Assembly (NCBI GenBank): GCA_002868855.1
Contig: PKUM01000244.1
Coordinates: 1-48,889, forward strand
DNA length: 48,889 nucleotides
Source: Chromatiales bacterium
GTDB lineage: Bacteria; Pseudomonadota; Gammaproteobacteria; Steroidobacterales; BM003
Reading direction: 5' to 3'
Numbering within the stretch: the first letter of the stretch is position 1; the number at the start of each line of letters is the position of its first letter. Made by a program: the position numbers and the translations under genes. Below are positions 16,468 to 43,663 of the stretch, one piece after another. The notes beneath the pieces are model-generated. The model was not told the origin of the DNA and did not search any database. It was given only the letters and a program-made list of their open reading frames with translations.

Positions 16468-16656
16468 GGCGCTTCCCGCCTGTGCCGGTGCAGATCATCG
16501 CTCTCGAACCAGAGCGATAGGTGGGACGCGGCGGTTAGTCTCAGGCTACCCGCCAAAAGCGGGTTTGCTCAACGACCCACGCGGCCGTAATGTCCCGATG
16601 TTACAGATTAGGCTCGAAGGGATCCCGATCTGCTGCCGAACACCGCAGGAAGCGCC
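16468..16656 (-). ncRNA. ssrS: 6S RNA
   Basis: Located between zapA and ygfA on the same strand as in other gammaproteobacteria; terminal arms GGCGCUUCC / GGGAAGCGCC pair; ggtgTTCGgcag near the 5' end; 3'-half hairpin ATCGCTCT-GGTTCG-AGAGCGAT. Confidence 0.85.
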
Positions 16657-26107: not shown

Positions 26108-26124
26108 CTGTCGCTCCAACCTAT

Positions 26125-26314
26125 AGCCTCCCCTGGGAGAGACCCCGGAACGACCGACCGGGGCGCCGAAGGCGCAACCCGCCCGGAAACGCTCAGGCAA
26201 ACGGACCGGGAGAGGCTGGTTGGCTCTGGAGAGCGGCCGCAAAAGCGGTCCACCGAAGGGGCCGGATGGCGCTGACGCAGCATCCAATCTCTCAGGTTTC
26301 AGGACAGAGGGGCG
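26125..26314 (+). ncRNA. Tandem glycine riboswitch (two gcvT-type aptamers)
   Basis: Aptamer 1 CTGGGAGAGACC...GCGCCGAAGGCGCAA...CGCTCAGGCAAACGGACCGGGAGAGG; aptamer 2 CTCTGGAGAGCGG...CACCGAAGGGGC...AATCTCTCAGGTTTCAGGACAGAGG; immediately upstream of gcvT. Confidence 0.94.
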
Positions 26315-36024: not shown

Positions 36025-36494
36025 ACTGCGGACCGGTCTTCAGTGCTTCCCGCTTTCGCGTCTGCCAGCAACGAGGCAGCTTTTGCCACCGCATCGCGCG
36101 GAATCATAAAGCCTGCCTCGCACTCGGCAAATAACGTGCCGTCATTCGCATCCTCGATTCGTCCCTGCATCGTAATCAGTTGTCCGCGTTGTTGCAGCGC
36201 CCGGCCGACCAGCGCGAGTGTGCCGCCTACCCGGGCCGGTTTCCGGAAACGCAAATCGCAACGCGCCGTGTAGCCGTGCAGTCCTTGCAGGTACAACCAG
36301 TTGGCCATGACATCGTCGAGTGCGGCGAACAGGATTCCACCATGCACCACGGTGTCCCAGCCGGTGTGGTTCTGATCCGGGGTGAACTCGGCGCGGCACA
36401 AACCGTTGACAAGACGAAATTTGATCCCCAGCCCGATTGGGTTGCGGCTGCCGCAGACAAAGCAGTTCTCCGACTCAGCGCCGGGCGTGGTCAC
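36021..36494 (-). CDS. Hotdog-fold PaaI-like thioesterase
   Basis: NCFVCGSRNPIGLG, HTGWDTVVHGGILFAALDDVMANWL. Confidence 0.82.
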   Translation of the reverse strand: MTTPGAESENCFVCGSRNPIGLGIKFRLVNGLCRAEFTPDQNHTGWDTVVHGGILFAALDDVMANWLYLQGLHGYTARCDLRFRKPARVGGTLALVGRALQQRGQLITMQGRIEDANDGTLFAECEAGFMIPRDAVAKAASLLADAKAGSTEDRSAV

Positions 36495-37807
36495 AAACCT
36501 GCCTCCTTCTGTGCCTGGCGCAGTTGCTCGAGTCTTCCCTGCAGAATCGCCAGTTGCAGATCGCCGGGGGCGCCAGGCGAGACGCGTGCTGCGATGCTGT
36601 CGGCGGCGCTGCGAGCCGCAAGGTCGTCGTATTCCTCGCGAACGCGACGGTAGGCTTCGCGAAACGGAACCCCCGAGGCAGTCATCTCGATCGCCCGGTC
36701 GGTGGCGTGCATCGATGGCTCTGTCGCGGCTTCGAGGCGTTCGGCCACAAATTGCGTTCCGCGTACCAGATCCGGCATCAGCGCCATCGCATCGAGACCA
36801 TGGACCAGCGCGCGAATCAGCGGTCCTTTCGTGTTCTGCAAATCCCGGTGATAGCCGGAGGGCAGGGACAACAGGCTTTGTAGTTCGGTCATGGCGCCCT
36901 GCACTGTGGGATAGCTGGCCCTTAGTAGTTCCACAAGATCGGGATTGCGCTTGTTGGGCATGATTGAAGACCCGGTCGTAAACGCATCCGGCAGGCTGAC
37001 GAAACCGAATTCGGCCGTCGTGAACAGCGAAAGATCCCAGGCATAACGCCGCACATCGAGCAATGCCTGGGCCACCGCGGTCAGTGCCTGTAGTTCGAAT
37101 TTTCCGCGGCTGTTCTGGGCATAGATCGGGTTGAGCTGGATTCGCGAAAACCCGAGCTCGGAGGTGGCATAAGCGCGATCGAGCGGCAGATTGACTCCGA
37201 ATCCCGCAGCGGTGCCAAGTGGGTTGGCGTCGATCCAGCGCGCGCTGCTGAGAGCCAGTTCGCCGTTATCGACAAAACTCTCGGCAAACGCAGCGAACCA
37301 GGTGGCAACCGATGAGACGACCGCGCGCTGCAGATGGGTATAGCCTGGCATCGGTGTATCGCCACATGCATGTGCTTGCTCGAGACAGGCGGCGGCGGTT
37401 TGTTCGCACAAGTCGACGAGCGTCGCGAGGCTGTCGCGCAGCAGTAGTCGGCTGGCGACAAGCACCTGGTCGTTGCGACTGCGTCCCGTATGCACCTTTT
37501 TGCCGACTTCGCCGAGGCGCTCGGTCAACCATGCCTCGATGGCTGAGTGGCCATCCTCGTAGCGCTGATCGAGCACAAAGGTGCCGTCCTGGAATCCCAG
37601 CGCGAGCCGATCGAGTTCCGCGCAAATCGCGTTGGCCTCGGCCTCGCTCAGGACGCCGATTCTTGCCAGCCCGGCGCTGTGCACGCGCGAGGCCCGAATA
37701 TCGTACAGAAAAAGATGACGATCGAGTTCCACGTCGGCGCCGGCCATGAAGCGCATGATCCGTTCGTCGACGTGAGTGCCAGGCTTCTGCCAAAGGAAAT
37801 CAGGCAT
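36491..37807 (-). CDS. argH: Argininosuccinate lyase
   Basis: EDGHSAIEAWLTERLG, HTGRSRNDQV, PMPGYTHLQRAV, GSSIMPNKRNPDLVEL. Confidence 0.95.
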   Translation of the reverse strand: MPDFLWQKPGTHVDERIMRFMAGADVELDRHLFLYDIRASRVHSAGLARIGVLSEAEANAICAELDRLALGFQDGTFVLDQRYEDGHSAIEAWLTERLGEVGKKVHTGRSRNDQVLVASRLLLRDSLATLVDLCEQTAAACLEQAHACGDTPMPGYTHLQRAVVSSVATWFAAFAESFVDNGELALSSARWIDANPLGTAAGFGVNLPLDRAYATSELGFSRIQLNPIYAQNSRGKFELQALTAVAQALLDVRRYAWDLSLFTTAEFGFVSLPDAFTTGSSIMPNKRNPDLVELLRASYPTVQGAMTELQSLLSLPSGYHRDLQNTKGPLIRALVHGLDAMALMPDLVRGTQFVAERLEAATEPSMHATDRAIEMTASGVPFREAYRRVREEYDDLAARSAADSIAARVSPGAPGDLQLAILQGRLEQLRQAQKEAGL

Positions 37808-38753
37808 GAGGGATTCCTTCGAGTTCCGCGTAACCACAAGTCAGGTTCAGGTTTTGCAGCGCTTGTGTTGCGGCACCCTTCAACAGATTATCGAGCGTGG
37901 CAAAAGCCACCAGATAACGGCCGGCCGCATCGAGTTGAAAGCCGCCGACACAGGCATGATGGTGCCCCGCATTGGCGGCGACTTCCGGAATTTCCGTCGA
38001 CACTAGCAGCAATGGCACCCCGGCGTAGGCTTCTTCGTATTTCTGTACGATTGCCGCGAGTTCGTAACTGCTGTCGAGTTCCATGCCAACCGTCATCGAA
38101 ATGCCGCGAAAAAAGGCGGCGACATGCGGGGTAAAACGGACCGCGGTCGGCAACTGGAAACTGACTTCGCGTTCATGTAAGTGCCCGATGGGCTGGTAAG
38201 GCATCAGGTTGTCTTGCAGGCGAGCCGGGTCGTTTCGCGGCGATGGTGTCGTGCCTGCGCCACTGTATCCGGAAACGCCAAAACAGTGCGGCGGGCTGGC
38301 GATGATGCCCGCCACCGGTGCGATTGCCAGTTGCATTGCCGTTGCATAGCAACCGGGATTCGCTATCCGGGTTGTTCCTGGCGGAGTAGGGCGCAGTTCG
38401 GGCAAGCCGTAATGCCAGCCCGGGTCGAAGCGGTAGTCTGCGGAGACGTCGACTATCACGGTTTGTGGCCGCCGGGCGGCAATTTCCCCGACCCACGCAT
38501 CCGCCAGACCGTTGGGTAATGCCAGGATACAGGCGTCGGGTTCGCGTTCTGCCACCTGTGCCGCCGTGGCTGCCTCGAAATGCAGACCGTCGGGCGCGCC
38601 GGCGACGTGCCTGGCAACTGCCTCCCCGGCATATTCCCGCGAGCTGACCAGAACCAGATCGAAACCGCGATGGGCGAACAACAGGCGCATTAGCTCCGCG
38701 CCCACATGGCCGCGGGCGCCGATCAGCGCAACGGTTTTCTGCCTTTCGCTCAT
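37800..38753 (-). CDS. argC: N-acetyl-gamma-glutamyl-phosphate reductase
   Basis: VALIGARGHVGAELMRLL, VDVSADYRFD, ANPGCYATAMQLA, GVSGYSGAGTTPSPRND. Confidence 0.92.
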   Translation of the reverse strand: MSERQKTVALIGARGHVGAELMRLLFAHRGFDLVLVSSREYAGEAVARHVAGAPDGLHFEAATAAQVAEREPDACILALPNGLADAWVGEIAARRPQTVIVDVSADYRFDPGWHYGLPELRPTPPGTTRIANPGCYATAMQLAIAPVAGIIASPPHCFGVSGYSGAGTTPSPRNDPARLQDNLMPYQPIGHLHEREVSFQLPTAVRFTPHVAAFFRGISMTVGMELDSSYELAAIVQKYEEAYAGVPLLLVSTEIPEVAANAGHHHACVGGFQLDAAGRYLVAFATLDNLLKGAATQALQNLNLTCGYAELEGIPHA

Positions 38754-38757
38754 AGGG

Positions 38758-40071
38758 TCACCTCAGAGTTGCGCGTGCTCGCATTGCCGTTTCGACACAT
38801 TGGCTGATCTGCCCGAAGTCATCGATACCGCACCAGAACACGTGCCACTCATCGCCCTTGATGCATCCGTCAGCGTGTTGGAAGTAGAAAGTATTGACCG
38901 GATTATTCGGGCGCGCCCGCCAGAAAATGCTGGGATAGTCCTGGCGGAACCGGTTCCATACCGCACGCCCCAGACCCTCACCCTGCGCTTCTTCGGTGAC
39001 CGCAAATTTGTCGAGATAGGCCACTTCTCCGATTCGGGTGATGACTGCGCCGGCCCGGTAGCTGTCGCTGATGTAGACAGCCTCGACGGCGGCGTTTGCG
39101 AAATAGTCCTGACTCAAGGTTTTCTGGAAGCTCGTCTCGAGCAACTGTTTCAGCCGTCCCAGATCGACTTCATCCCAGTTGCGATGCATGTGAATGCTCT
39201 CGCCGAAGCGCACCAGCGTTCCCGAGCCACGGTAGGTAAACAACTCTTTGGCCAGAAGTGTCGGTTTGGTTATTGATATCGAGGTCGACAACGGCAGGTC
39301 TTTCAACAGGTCGTGGATTTGCTCGAGCTTCAGCCGCATACCCGAATGCAGCCAGTCCTGCTCCATCAGCATTTTGTAGTCGGTGCTCAGGTTTATCGAA
39401 GAGATGACGCCACCCTCGCGGTCGAGAATTCCGCCGGTACCAGTCAGAAAAATGATTTTGAACGGCTGAACCGAGCGAACCAGTTCGTTGGTCGCAACAT
39501 CCGCGTTGATGTTCAGTATCTGCCCGTCCGCGGTCTCTCCGAATGGCGATATCACCGGGATGATGTTCGAGCGTAGCGAGGCTCGAACTGCCTCGAGGTG
39601 GACCTGCCGGACCGCGCCGACAAGCCCCAGCCGGTCGCGATCCAGTAATTCCGCCTCGAACACGCCATTGGTGATGGATGTCGCGCGGGTCCCGGTTTCG
39701 CGCAACGCTTCGACCAGGCGCAGATTTTCGCGTTGAAACACCTTTCTCGCGATTTTCAGGACCGCTGGTGGCGTTACCCGCAATCCGTCCGCCCGTTCGG
39801 TTTCAATTCCTTCCGCCTCAAGCGCCAGGTCGAGTTGTGGCCCGCCGCCGTGGACGACGATTGGTGTGAGCCCGACCTGCTGCAGGAATGCGAGCGACGA
39901 ACTGAGTCCGCCAAGCTGCTTGTGCAGCGTTGCGCCGCCGACTTTTACCACGGCAAATTTCTCGCTCTCGATGCTGGAGAACCTGCGCAGGTACTGCTGG
40001 ATTTCCTTTTGGCTGCCGAAGTTGCCAAGAAGTCGAACGATTATTTGTCTGGTTTGCTTATCTGTTGTCAT
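38758..40071 (-). CDS. argB: Bifunctional N-acetylglutamate kinase/synthase (argB-NAT fusion, Xanthomonas type)
   Basis: N-terminal amino acid kinase VVKVGGATL, VVHGGGPQLD, NINADVATNELV; C-terminal GNAT-like VEAVYISDSYRAGAVITRIGEVAYLDKFAVTEEAQGEGLGRAVWNRFRQDYPSIFWRARPNNPVNTFYF. Confidence 0.92.
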   Translation of the reverse strand: MTTDKQTRQIIVRLLGNFGSQKEIQQYLRRFSSIESEKFAVVKVGGATLHKQLGGLSSSLAFLQQVGLTPIVVHGGGPQLDLALEAEGIETERADGLRVTPPAVLKIARKVFQRENLRLVEALRETGTRATSITNGVFEAELLDRDRLGLVGAVRQVHLEAVRASLRSNIIPVISPFGETADGQILNINADVATNELVRSVQPFKIIFLTGTGGILDREGGVISSINLSTDYKMLMEQDWLHSGMRLKLEQIHDLLKDLPLSTSISITKPTLLAKELFTYRGSGTLVRFGESIHMHRNWDEVDLGRLKQLLETSFQKTLSQDYFANAAVEAVYISDSYRAGAVITRIGEVAYLDKFAVTEEAQGEGLGRAVWNRFRQDYPSIFWRARPNNPVNTFYFQHADGCIKGDEWHVFWCGIDDFGQISQCVETAMRARATLR

Positions 40072-41149
40072 GATCGATTAGCCTGATGTAATGCTGTGTG
40101 ACCGCGTCCAGTTGCTCGAGCGCAACCCATTCGTTGGCGCAGTGTGCCTGTTCGATATCGCCCGGCCCGAACACCAGTGCCGCAAGTCCGGCCGCCGAAA
40201 AAAGCGACGCTTCGGTCCAGAAGTTCACTGCATCGGTTGTCGGAAGCGCGTAGTGCTCGGCGAGTCGGTGTGCCGCGCGCTCGCGGTCCACGCCGGGCCC
40301 TGGCAGGGCCGGTCCGACAAATCCCTCTTGCCATCCGGCAACGTGCGCATCGGGCGCGAGTTGCCGTAGTTGTTCCAGCAGCCGCCGTCCGTCCTGGTCC
40401 GGCAATGGTCTTATGCCGAATCGCACTACGGCCTCGGCTGCGATTACGTTGGGTTTTACTCCGCCAGCGATAGTCCCGATGTTAAGCGGGATGCCTTTCA
40501 GCCCTTCGTATTCCCTGTGCTGCCGCTGTTGCGCGAACTCCAGCGCGCGCGTGCCCCAGCGGATGGCGCGGTGGATCGCGTTGTCCTCGAGAGCGCGAGC
40601 GGCTGAAGCGTGCCCCGCAATACCGCCGAAACCGATCGTTGCCGTAGCGATTCCGCGATGGGCCAGTACCGCTTTGGCGCCGGTGGGTTCCGCGACAATA
40701 GCGTTTTTAAAGCCATGGCTGGTGCCGAGGAAGCGGCGGATGCATCGGCTGTTCCCGGCTTCCTCGTCGGACGTGAAAAGCAGGGCAAGCGGCCCCCCTC
40801 GCTGCGCCGCTGCCGAGAGCATGCAAGCCGCCGCCCCCTTTATGTCGCAGGCACCGAGTCCGTATGCCCGATCCGGGGTGACCCGCAGTGCCAACGGATC
40901 ATCGCGCCAGCCGTCGGCGGCCGGAACCGTATCGACATGGAAATTGAAGACCGTGTCAGGCGAGCCGCGCGAGGCCAGCAGGCTGATACACCCATCGCCG
41001 TGATCCTCGCTGTGAAAATCGAATCCGCTCAGATTGTCACGCAGGTATGCGAAAAGGCCGCCCTCGTCGATGGAACGCGGCGGATTCCGCGTGTCGAATC
41101 CGACCAGAGCCTCGAGATGGTCGATGGTCTGCCGTTGCAGTTTGTTCAT
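40058..41149 (-). CDS. argE: M20 family deacetylase, probable N-acetylcitrulline/acetylornithine deacetylase
   Basis: [63 protein letters not shown]; start reassigned to ATG 41149 (ATGA overlap with argG). Confidence 0.88.
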
Positions 41150-42363
41150 CTGTTCGGATTGTCCCCGGGTTGCGGATTCACGGCTGTCCACAGCGAGGAA
41201 CTCTGGCCGAATAACTTGATGAACCCTTCGGCCTCGGTAACCGACCAGTCAGCCGATTGCGCGTAGGTCGCCCCGGCGGAACGCAGAATATGCGGCGAAT
41301 CGATAGCCACCGCATCGACGCTGCCGCCGGTGGACTGTAGCGTAACCTCGCCGTTGACCACGCGCTGCGACGATGACAGGTACGCTTCCAGATCAGTTTT
41401 CAGCGGTTCGTAGAAAAATCCCTGATACAGCAATTCGACCCATTTCATCGCCGCAATCGGTTTGAACCCGTTCTGGTGGCGCGTCGAAACCGCTTCCTCG
41501 AGCGCGCGATGAGCGACGTGTAATGCTGTCAGCGCGGGAGCTTCAAATACGATCCGGCCTTTCAGCCCGATGACTGTATCGCCGGTGTACATGCCACGGC
41601 CCACGCCGTATGCGCCGAAGCGCTTGTTCAACACGGCGAGAATCTGCGGCCCCCCGAGTGTCTCCCCGTCTACGGAAACCGGCACGCCCTGTTTGAAACC
41701 GATTCGAACCTGCAATGGCTCGTCGGGCCATTGCGCCGCCGGACTCGTCAGTTGCCATGTGGCCGGGCCAGGCGTCTCCCATCGATCCACTTCCGAGCCC
41801 GATATTGTCACGCCCAGCAGATTTTCGTTCATCGTGTAGGTAGAGGTCTTGGCGCGAACGGAATACCCGTTTTTTTCCAGGTACGACTGCTCGTAGTCCC
41901 GGACATTGCTCTCCAGTTGCTGGATTTCGCGAATCGGAGCGATGATGTTGTAGTCCCCGAGTCCGCGCACGGTCAGATCGAACCGTACCTGGTCGTTACC
42001 CATCCCGGTGCAGCCATGGGCGAAATTTCGTGTACCGAGCTGGTCACATAGCTGCAGTGCTTTTTTCACTATCACATAACGATCGGAGCACAGGAGCGGG
42101 TACTGGTGCTGGTAAAAACAGCCACCCCAGAGCATTGGCAATACCACCTCGTCCCATACCTCGGCACCCGCATCGGCAACCTCGTGACGAAACGCTCCGA
42201 GTTCGTTCGCGCGGGCAGCGATATATGCGCGCTCCTTGGCCGTGACGCCGCCGGTATCGACAAACAACGTTGTAACCCGATAACCCTGTTCGGTCAGCCA
42301 CGGTACGCAGAAACTGGTGTCCAGACCGCCGGAGAATGCGAGCACGACCTGTTTATTACTCAT
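41146..42363 (-). CDS. argG: Argininosuccinate synthase
   Basis: [35 protein letters not shown]. Confidence 0.93.
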
Positions 42364-42381: not shown

Positions 42382-43392
42382 TTAATTCGAGGGCGCCTGG
42401 CCGACCAGCGTCGCCATGAGGGCCTTCTGTACATGAAGCCGGTTCTCGGCTTCGTCGATGGCGATGCAGTAGTCTGCATCCATGACCCCATCGGTGACCT
42501 TCACGTTGCGCCGGCATGGCAGGCAATGGCTGAAGCGGGCATTGTTTGTGAGGTCCATTTTCCGCTCATCGACAATGAAATGGCGATGACGGTCGCGGAT
42601 CGGTTGCTCCTGGTCCCAGCGGCCGAAAAACGGCAAGGCGCCCCAGCTTTTTGCATAAACGAAGTCGGCGCCGGTATAAGCCGACTCGATGTCGTGGCTC
42701 AACGATACACTGCCGCCCGCGGCAGTTGCGTTTGCCTCCGCGGCCTGGATGTATCGTGGATCGAGGATATAGTCGGTGTTGGGGCATAGCAACGTGACGT
42801 CGAAGCCGAATTTGCTGGCAATCAGCAAGGCGGAATTGGCTACCGCGGTGTTGAGCGGGCGTGGATGGTAGGTCCAGGTAAGCACGAACTTGCGACCCGC
42901 CGCGGCGCCGAGATGCTCCTGTAAGGTCAGCATCAGCGCAAGTTCCTGGCACGGATGGGTAATTGTCTCCATGTTGATGACCGGGACCTCGGCGTGCTCG
43001 GCGAAGGCGCGGATCAGTCGATCCTCGCGATCTATCGACCAGTCCTGAAATTTGGGGAACGCCCGGATTGCGATCAGATCGCAGTACCTCGACAGCACCC
43101 TGGCCGCCTCGCGCACATGCTCCTCGGCCTCACCGTCCATAATTGCGCCGGTTTCGAACTCCAGTGGCCAGGCATCCCGCCCCGGTGCCAGCACTATCGC
43201 GTGCCCGCCAAGCTGGCGGGCGCCGATTTCGAACGATGACCGGGTCCGCAACGAGGGGTTGAAGAACATTAGCGCAATTGTCTTTCCGGCGAGGGCACTG
43301 CTGACCCTCCCGCTTTTGAGCGCGGCGGCATCGTCGAGCATTTGTTGCAGCTCGTCGCGACTCCAGTCCTCTGTGGTCAGGAAATGTCTCAC
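42382..43392 (-). CDS. argF': N-acetylornithine carbamoyltransferase (argF'-type AOTCase)
   Basis: FFNPSLRTRSSFEIGARQLGGHAIVL, MDGEAEEHVREAARVLSRYCDLI, INMETITHPCQELA, LTWTYHPRPLNTAVANSALLIA, AKSWGALPFFGRW, HCLPCRRNVKVTDGVMD, IDEAENRLHVQKALMA; closely matches the Xanthomonas enzyme from memory. Start proposed at GTG 43392 (SD AAGAGGG, 8-nt spacing); ORF extends to ATG 43419. Confidence 0.92.
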   Translation of the reverse strand: MRHFLTTEDWSRDELQQMLDDAAALKSGRVSSALAGKTIALMFFNPSLRTRSSFEIGARQLGGHAIVLAPGRDAWPLEFETGAIMDGEAEEHVREAARVLSRYCDLIAIRAFPKFQDWSIDREDRLIRAFAEHAEVPVINMETITHPCQELALMLTLQEHLGAAAGRKFVLTWTYHPRPLNTAVANSALLIASKFGFDVTLLCPNTDYILDPRYIQAAEANATAAGGSVSLSHDIESAYTGADFVYAKSWGALPFFGRWDQEQPIRDRHRHFIVDERKMDLTNNARFSHCLPCRRNVKVTDGVMDADYCIAIDEAENRLHVQKALMATLVGQAPSN

Positions 43393-43426
43393 GCCAATCG
43401 CCCTCTTATCTGGTTTCATGCTTCTT

Positions 43427-43459
43427 AAAACGAAAAAACCCAGCCTGTCGGGCCGGGTT
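43427..43459 (-). terminator. Intrinsic terminator in the argF' operon leader (attenuator)
   Basis: Minus strand AACCCGGCC-CGACA-GGCTGGGTT-TTTTCGTTTT; 9-bp stem with one G-U, followed by a T-rich tract, 35 nt upstream of the proposed argF' start. Confidence 0.85.
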
Positions 43460-43498
43460 GTCGGATATTTCTCAGGTGTTCCGTACGCGACCCAGCCT
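43451..43498 (-). promoter_or_regulatory. Candidate antiterminator: GGCTGGGT (43497-43490) pairing with ACCCGGCC (43458-43451)
   Basis: AGGCTGGGT at 43490-43498 exactly repeats the terminator 3' arm (43438-43446) and competes for the same 5' arm. Confidence 0.7.
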
Positions 43499-43502
43499 CA
43501 GG

Positions 43503-43568
43503 TTATTCCCTGCGGCGTCGGCGAAGTGTCTTGCCGGAACAAATAGGTTGTAGTATTGCGGCGCTCAT
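43503..43568 (-). CDS. Arginine leader peptide MSAAILQPICSGKTLRRRRRE (attenuation peptide)
   Basis: ATG AGC GCC GCA ATA CTA CAA CCT ATT TGT TCC GGC AAG ACA CTT CGC CGA CGC CGC AGG GAA TAA; five consecutive Arg codons at 43509-43523, just upstream of terminator/antiterminator elements. Confidence 0.82.
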   Translation of the reverse strand: MSAAILQPICSGKTLRRRRRE

Positions 43569-43663
43569 TCAGGTGCGTGACCGTATTTCGATGCTGTGCG
43601 GCTGCGCGTTAGTTAACACCATGCCCGCTGGGCACGCAAGCCCGGATTTCCGCAGAGGGTTCG

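Follow-up and report, generated by a model that had tools for sequence, protein, structure and literature searches.

The locus examined here raises the question of how arginine synthesis is controlled in a gammaproteobacterial genome that lacks the ArgR repressor. It lies on the minus strand of the 48,889-nucleotide stretch of DNA that was analysed (henceforth the window), ahead of an operon whose first gene, argF' (42382..43419, ATG at 43419), encodes N-acetylornithine carbamoyltransferase (AOTCase; NF003384, 567.5 bits against a cut-off of 288). It is followed on the same strand by argG, for argininosuccinate synthase (41146..42363; NF003385), an argE-like gene for an acetylornithine/acetylcitrulline deacetylase (40058..41191; NF006439), a fused acetylglutamate kinase-synthase, argB/A (38758..40071; NF003387, with the Pfam AA_kinase and NAT domains), argC (37800..38753; TIGR01850) and argH (36491..37837; TIGR00838), all scoring over the cut-offs of the respective models. 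A survey of regulons treats ArgR as the gammaproteobacterial regulator of arginine metabolism (PMC5343134), and the first-pass annotation of this DNA had likewise noted that arginine genes are usually thought of as ArgR-repressed. That generalisation fails for the window's genome: argR is absent by both of its domains, PF02863 and PF01316, and an ArgR-controlled operon is thereby ruled out.

The DNA immediately upstream of argF' shows a compact architecture. A short leader ORF encoding the peptide MSAAILQPICSGKTLRRRRRE (21 codons; minus strand, 43503..43568, stop included) runs from an ATG at 43568, its start being bounded by an in-frame TGA directly 5' of the ATG, to a TAA at 43505-43503, and contains five consecutive Arg codons, CGC CGA CGC CGC AGG (43509..43523). 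Beyond the stop lies the segment GGCTGGGT (43490..43497), which repeats the 3' arm of a downstream hairpin and can therefore pair over 8 bp with its 5' arm as an antiterminator strand, one that is conserved in relatives. The hairpin itself, AACCCGGCC-CGACA-GGCTGGGTT (43437..43459; 9 bp, loop CGACA, -14.7 kcal/mol), is followed by the T-rich tail TTTTCGTTTT (43427..43436) and has the form of an intrinsic terminator, located after the leader ORF and ahead of argF'. The earlier coordinates of the ORF, the five-Arg run, GGCTGGGT and the 9-bp terminator proved exact to the base. The amino acid of the codon cluster, arginine, is the end product of the operon.

We propose, at a probability of roughly 0.88, that the argF' leader is a ribosome-mediated transcription attenuator that senses the supply of arginyl-tRNA. 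The basis for this reading is the anatomy of the site, its conservation, the geometry between codons and antiterminator, coding constraint, the absence of ArgR and the transcription of the leader in Xanthomonas; from these we infer that the ribosome stalls, that the RNA switches between folds and that it responds to arginine or arginyl-tRNA. RNA polymerase would start upstream of the leader ORF and transcribe the leader. When arginine is scarce, the leading ribosome would stall at the Arg codons, which lie 13-25 nt ahead of GGCTGGGT. That segment would remain accessible and would pair with the 5' arm AACCCGGCC immediately after that arm is transcribed, so that no terminator would form and argF'-argG-argE'-argB/A-argC-argH would be transcribed. 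With ample arginine, the ribosome would reach the stop codon, its footprint would cover GGCTGGGT, and the terminator would form and end transcription before argF'. Such a device would stand in for the ArgR repressor missing from the window's genome.

The spacing and the computed folding agree with this proposed geometry. Counted from the A-site codon, the five Arg codons of the window lie 25, 22, 19, 16 and 13 nt before the antiterminator. The antiterminator hairpin folds at -19.3 against -14.7 kcal/mol for the terminator; when a ribosome is stalled at the Arg codons and the 3' arm is still unmade, the RNA outside the ribosome folds into the antiterminator at -19.3 to -21.3 kcal/mol, and when the ribosome is placed on the stop codon, the terminator forms in place of the antiterminator. 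Thus, pairing, spacing and energies computationally define an antiterminator that is mutually exclusive with the terminator, free upon an Arg stall and covered at the stop. For the full-length RNA at equilibrium, the terminator is favoured in every case, from which it follows that the switch must act during transcription, as known attenuators do. Plain minimum-free-energy folding of the region is unremarkable (z = -0.65), a measure that is uninformative here since the element is a switch; the weight of the evidence lies in the layout and its conservation and not in such folding.

The same geometry recurs in relatives. The Arg codons lie 29, 23 and 20 nt before the antiterminator in almost all Xanthomonadales and 13-37 nt upstream of it in nearly every leader, while the stop codon falls, again in nearly every leader, between 7 nt upstream and about 25 nt downstream of the antiterminator's first base. 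Mostly it sits within the antiterminator, as GCC GGG TAG or GGC TGG GTAG. One exception to the spacing is L042, where the antiterminator picked by the automated procedure lies at another place.

GC-rich DNA often contains Arg-rich ORFs, and the site might accordingly be read as an ordinary intergenic terminator preceded by such an ORF through chance. As a control, we considered 99 other terminators from about 0.8 Mb of the window's genome and three related AOTCase genomes, scoring an upstream ORF with at least 3 Arg codons in 5 and a 7-bp antiterminator. An Arg-cluster ORF preceded 11 of the 99 and a 7-bp antiterminator accompanied 13, but the two were combined in none (0/99), as against 75 of the 91 annotatable AOTCase upstream regions; on the same scale the window site has 5 Arg codons and 8 bp. 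The co-occurrence of Arg cluster and antiterminator at the window site is not due to chance. Moreover, the gene next upstream of the leader is divergent, and hence the terminator ends no other gene on the minus strand and has no same-strand upstream gene to serve. With the device conserved at more than 90 loci, a coincidence of this kind is already refuted by conservation, and we give it a negligible probability.

This conservation emerges from a survey of 196 relatives, of which 21 (the window's genome counted) have a true AOTCase, with 58-100% identity, the rest having an OTCase or nothing. All 21 AOTCase genomes, which belong to the same order, have, ahead of the AOTCase gene, a short ORF in which Arg codons cluster and, after it, an antiterminator and a terminator; the weakest examples, L019 (RR) and L020 (RNRR), have only two or three Arg codons. 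Outside the order, the leader precedes AOTCase at 71 loci of Xanthomonadales (Rhodanobacter, Dyella, Frateuria, Luteibacter, Xanthomonas and others), where it has the core SARMAAGMTSRARRP, typically ...AG and then the stop, and where GCC GGG TAG is itself the antiterminator strand. It also occurs in a MAG of Kangiellaceae, with the leader MNINFSNINLVIRRRRRSLNAGCDNVCV containing RRRRR. The Arg-rich leader and the alternative helices are thus present at virtually every AOTCase locus examined in gammaproteobacteria, and neither of the computable outcomes that had been named in advance as counting against the proposal, namely an unconserved Arg-rich ORF or unconserved alternative helices, was encountered.

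No such leader was found at the OTCase loci of order-mates (L022-L030), where OTCase directly follows the upstream gene, and no leader or terminator at the AOTCase loci beyond Gammaproteobacteria or of unclear origin (Lujinxingia L080, the Myxococcales MAGs L095 and L100, and L081). At one further locus, from a MAG labelled Alphaproteobacteria (L083), there is a terminator-like hairpin about 20 nt upstream of AOTCase and, nearby, a short ORF with one Arg codon, which are possibly a degenerate or a different leader. Divergent transcarbamylases above the AOTCase-model cut-off, a cut-off that also passes two OTCase-like genes (G008 and G012), adjoin argR in three genomes (G234:C11, G312:C15 and G427:C68); the first of these was rejected as an AOTCase leader locus, there being no leader and the gene directly following its upstream neighbour. 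The leader of one Dyella sequence (ASV24, NZ_JAELTQ010000184.1) begins with ATGTGTATAAGAGACAG, which resembles a sequencing-adapter remnant, and this contig is thus probably chimeric at the start of the leader. Within the window's genome, inspection of 330 nt upstream of carA and of the two best argD candidates revealed no like device.

The distribution of ArgR shows the converse pattern. The PF02863 domain is found in 0 of the 21 AOTCase genomes versus 156 of the 175 relatives without AOTCase (Fisher p about 1e-17, in a test that ignores phylogeny), and ArgR is likewise absent from 12 named genomes with AOTCase. Since ArgR is patchy across the class (23 of 274 genomes), lack of it is not diagnostic by itself. 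Two AOTCase genomes (G136 and G153) sit in a family, f6, made up mostly of members with OTCase and ArgR, from which it appears that the association of ArgR loss with AOTCase probably arose more than once. In the OTCase relatives the same pathway is controlled by a DNA-binding repressor in the form of the ArgR regulon (PMC5343134), which is absent from the AOTCase genomes tested.

Translation of the leader is indicated by sequence in Xanthomonadales. Over 46 distinct core sequences the summed entropies by codon position are 2.26/1.83/10.75, which indicates that the leader is maintained as a protein, i.e. translated, a result that applies to this orthologue rather than to the window's own sequence. 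In the Xanthomonadales leaders (L031-L110) conservation of the core extends beyond Arg, and at some codons (GCC, TCG, CGA) even the third position hardly varies. The near-invariance of the core A-R-(M/A)-A-(A/S)-G-M-T-S-R-A-R-R at the peptide level, while synonymous sites vary freely among the 46 distinct DNA sequences, would suit a nascent-chain sensor like TnaC and SpeFL, in which ribosome arrest depends on the peptide plus free arginine or ornithine and not on uncharged tRNA. This could hold for Xanthomonadales, but the leader peptides of the window's order are unrelated to one another apart from their conserved Arg run. Furthermore, were expression permitted by sensing of the product, a biosynthetic operon would be regulated in the wrong direction unless arrest favoured termination, and the spacing between codons and antiterminator fits stalling at hungry codons. 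We therefore regard a nascent-chain sensor as improbable and retain attenuation by arginyl-tRNA supply as the preferred reading.

The antiterminator helix is kept in 60 of 60 aligned Xanthomonadales sequences, with a C-G to U-A exchange in Xanthomonas and in L108. In the other group each pair of the helix is kept in 19-22 of 22 sequences, one position varying between C-G, U-A and U-G and one showing a C-A mismatch. Covariation is modest, the observed value being reached by 27 of 1000 shuffles in a test that ignores phylogeny, and the significance is only modest because the helix arms are nearly invariant. The choice of control codons is itself skewed: CGA makes up 25% of the leader Arg codons in the window's group versus 12% in AOTCase coding sequence, and 31% versus 3% in Xanthomonadales. 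The leaders thus constitute a natural series for studying control-codon choice.

For transcription of the window's leader, a putative -35 element TTGCGT (43634..43639) and a putative -10 element TTAACT with a weak match to consensus (43611..43616) are separated by a spacer of 17, the latter lying 42 nt upstream of the leader ATG. The promoter had at first been only guessed; this candidate, TTGCGT-N17-TTAACT (43639-43611), is still a prediction, now backed by relatives, most of whose leader ORFs have a TTG(C) hexamer with a spacing of 16-18 nt upstream (62 of 66 Xanthomonadales leaders begin it with TTGC). No Shine-Dalgarno sequence is evident for the window's leader, in line with the earlier caveat. 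Elsewhere (L003, L004, L013-L020, L094 and L106) a -10-like hexamer ends 6-10 nt before the leader ATG, positions which suggest nearly leaderless leader transcripts.

No known riboswitch or RNA family was found in Rfam at the window site up to E = 5; other parts of the window carry a 6S RNA (16469-16654, minus strand; RF00013, 72.9 bits) and a glycine riboswitch aptamer (26124-26218, plus strand; RF00504, 62.1 bits). Three leader peptides gave no Pfam match at E <= 1, nor was there a match to known leader-peptide protein families in Pfam and NCBIfam. By contrast, the Xanthomonas leader is a full-length match to the Rfam family Xoo5 (RF02242; 143.9 bits, L106:2242-2365), which also matches two more Xanthomonas-type leaders (126.2 and 119.2 bits; L111:1250-1373 and L112:1223-1346), whereas neither the window nor the Rhodanobacteraceae loci tested reach its gathering threshold of 50 bits. 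sRNA-Xoo5 of Xanthomonas oryzae is a 124-nt, Northern-verified transcript with a 5' end determined by RACE, which lies between PXO_00354 and PXO_00353, the latter encoding N-acetylornithine carbamoyltransferase; it gives Northern bands of about 130 and about 100 nt, in a pattern that shifts with growth phase (PMC3039613). Placed on L106 through the Rfam model, its 5' end falls 2 nt ahead of the leader's ATG, a position consistent with a -10 hexamer found 9 nt upstream of that codon. The Xanthomonas leader transcript is thus real and nearly leaderless, which bears on the missing Shine-Dalgarno sequences of several relatives.

The cloned 3' end of Xoo5 lies about 6 nt short of the terminator hairpin, and an RNA terminated at the U-run would measure roughly 160 nt, more than the Northern sizes; processing or truncation during cloning must therefore be assumed. 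Xoo5 accordingly supports a short leader transcript but not, by itself, termination at the hairpin. It was published as an sRNA (PMC3039613) and has the Rfam type 'Gene; sRNA', and the short transcript could on that account be primarily an independent, trans-acting sRNA with its own terminator, the Arg-rich ORF being incidental or a small protein. We consider this very improbable: the element lies immediately 5' of AOTCase, in the same orientation, in nearly all AOTCase-bearing gammaproteobacteria examined, the 3' arm of the terminator is duplicated at the leader stop, the Arg codons keep a fixed distance and the coding constraint is strong. Rather, Xoo5 is the Xanthomonas version of the argF' leader, found in the same place before AOTCase and annotated as an sRNA. 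A catalogued sRNA of unassigned function is thereby reassigned to a cis-regulatory leader.

The leaders of trp, his, leu, thr, ilv and pheA share an ORF with codons for the end product, an alternative antiterminator and an intrinsic terminator before the first gene. The first-pass annotation had drawn the analogy to the his/trp/thr/leu leaders, and it stands for the layout of leader ORF, antiterminator and terminator but not for a 1:2 protector helix. A plausible 1:2 pairing (GCCgCAGG/CCUGaGGC) exists in the window, but across 87 loci the leader-antiterminator pairing is no stronger than in synonymous-codon randomisations, being in fact slightly weaker, and a his/trp-like protector helix is accordingly not supported as a conserved feature. 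We therefore do not file the leader under the trp/his subtype; the switch looks two-state, and loss of leader translation is predicted to raise, not lower, expression, unlike in his and trp. Relative to leaders of the trp/his type, the argF' leader differs in the amino acid, arginine, in the placement of its stop codon in or beside the antiterminator and in having no supported 1:2 helix. Another point of comparison is orf34/speFL of enterobacterial speF, where Arg codons in a short upstream ORF likewise allow arginine to be sensed through ribosome pausing (PMC6386406). The speF leaders act through Rho, RNase G and masking of the ribosome-binding site, and thus control ornithine decarboxylase by Rho-dependent termination (PMC6386406), whereas the argF' leader has an intrinsic terminator and precedes an arginine biosynthesis operon. 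The leader peptide shows no match to the SpeFL/orf34 family PF10940.

The suggestion that such a device may be undescribed needs qualification: neither an arginine attenuator on AOTCase operons nor such a role for Xoo5 was found in the open literature (subscription papers may hold earlier predictions), but the Xanthomonas form had already been detected as sRNA-Xoo5, unrecognised as an attenuator. A fuller evolutionary scenario is possible but doubtful: ArgR loss and the AOTCase pathway may have gone along with a dedicated arginine attenuator in gammaproteobacteria, to which the conserved core SARMAAGMTSRARRP evolved in Xanthomonadales then added an arrest specific to the peptide, some members having a nearly leaderless transcript, and the released leader (sRNA Xoo5) may have a role of its own. 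The argF' leaders appear to constitute a widespread family of arginine attenuators that stand where ArgR is missing, using a mechanism, classical leader-peptide attenuation, that is itself known. As such, they would extend the range of classical attenuators in proteobacteria to the sensing of arginine. Further, they would offer a concrete and conserved answer, of which we found no account in the openly available literature, to the question of how the ArgR-less AOTCase lineage, Xanthomonas included, regulates arginine synthesis.
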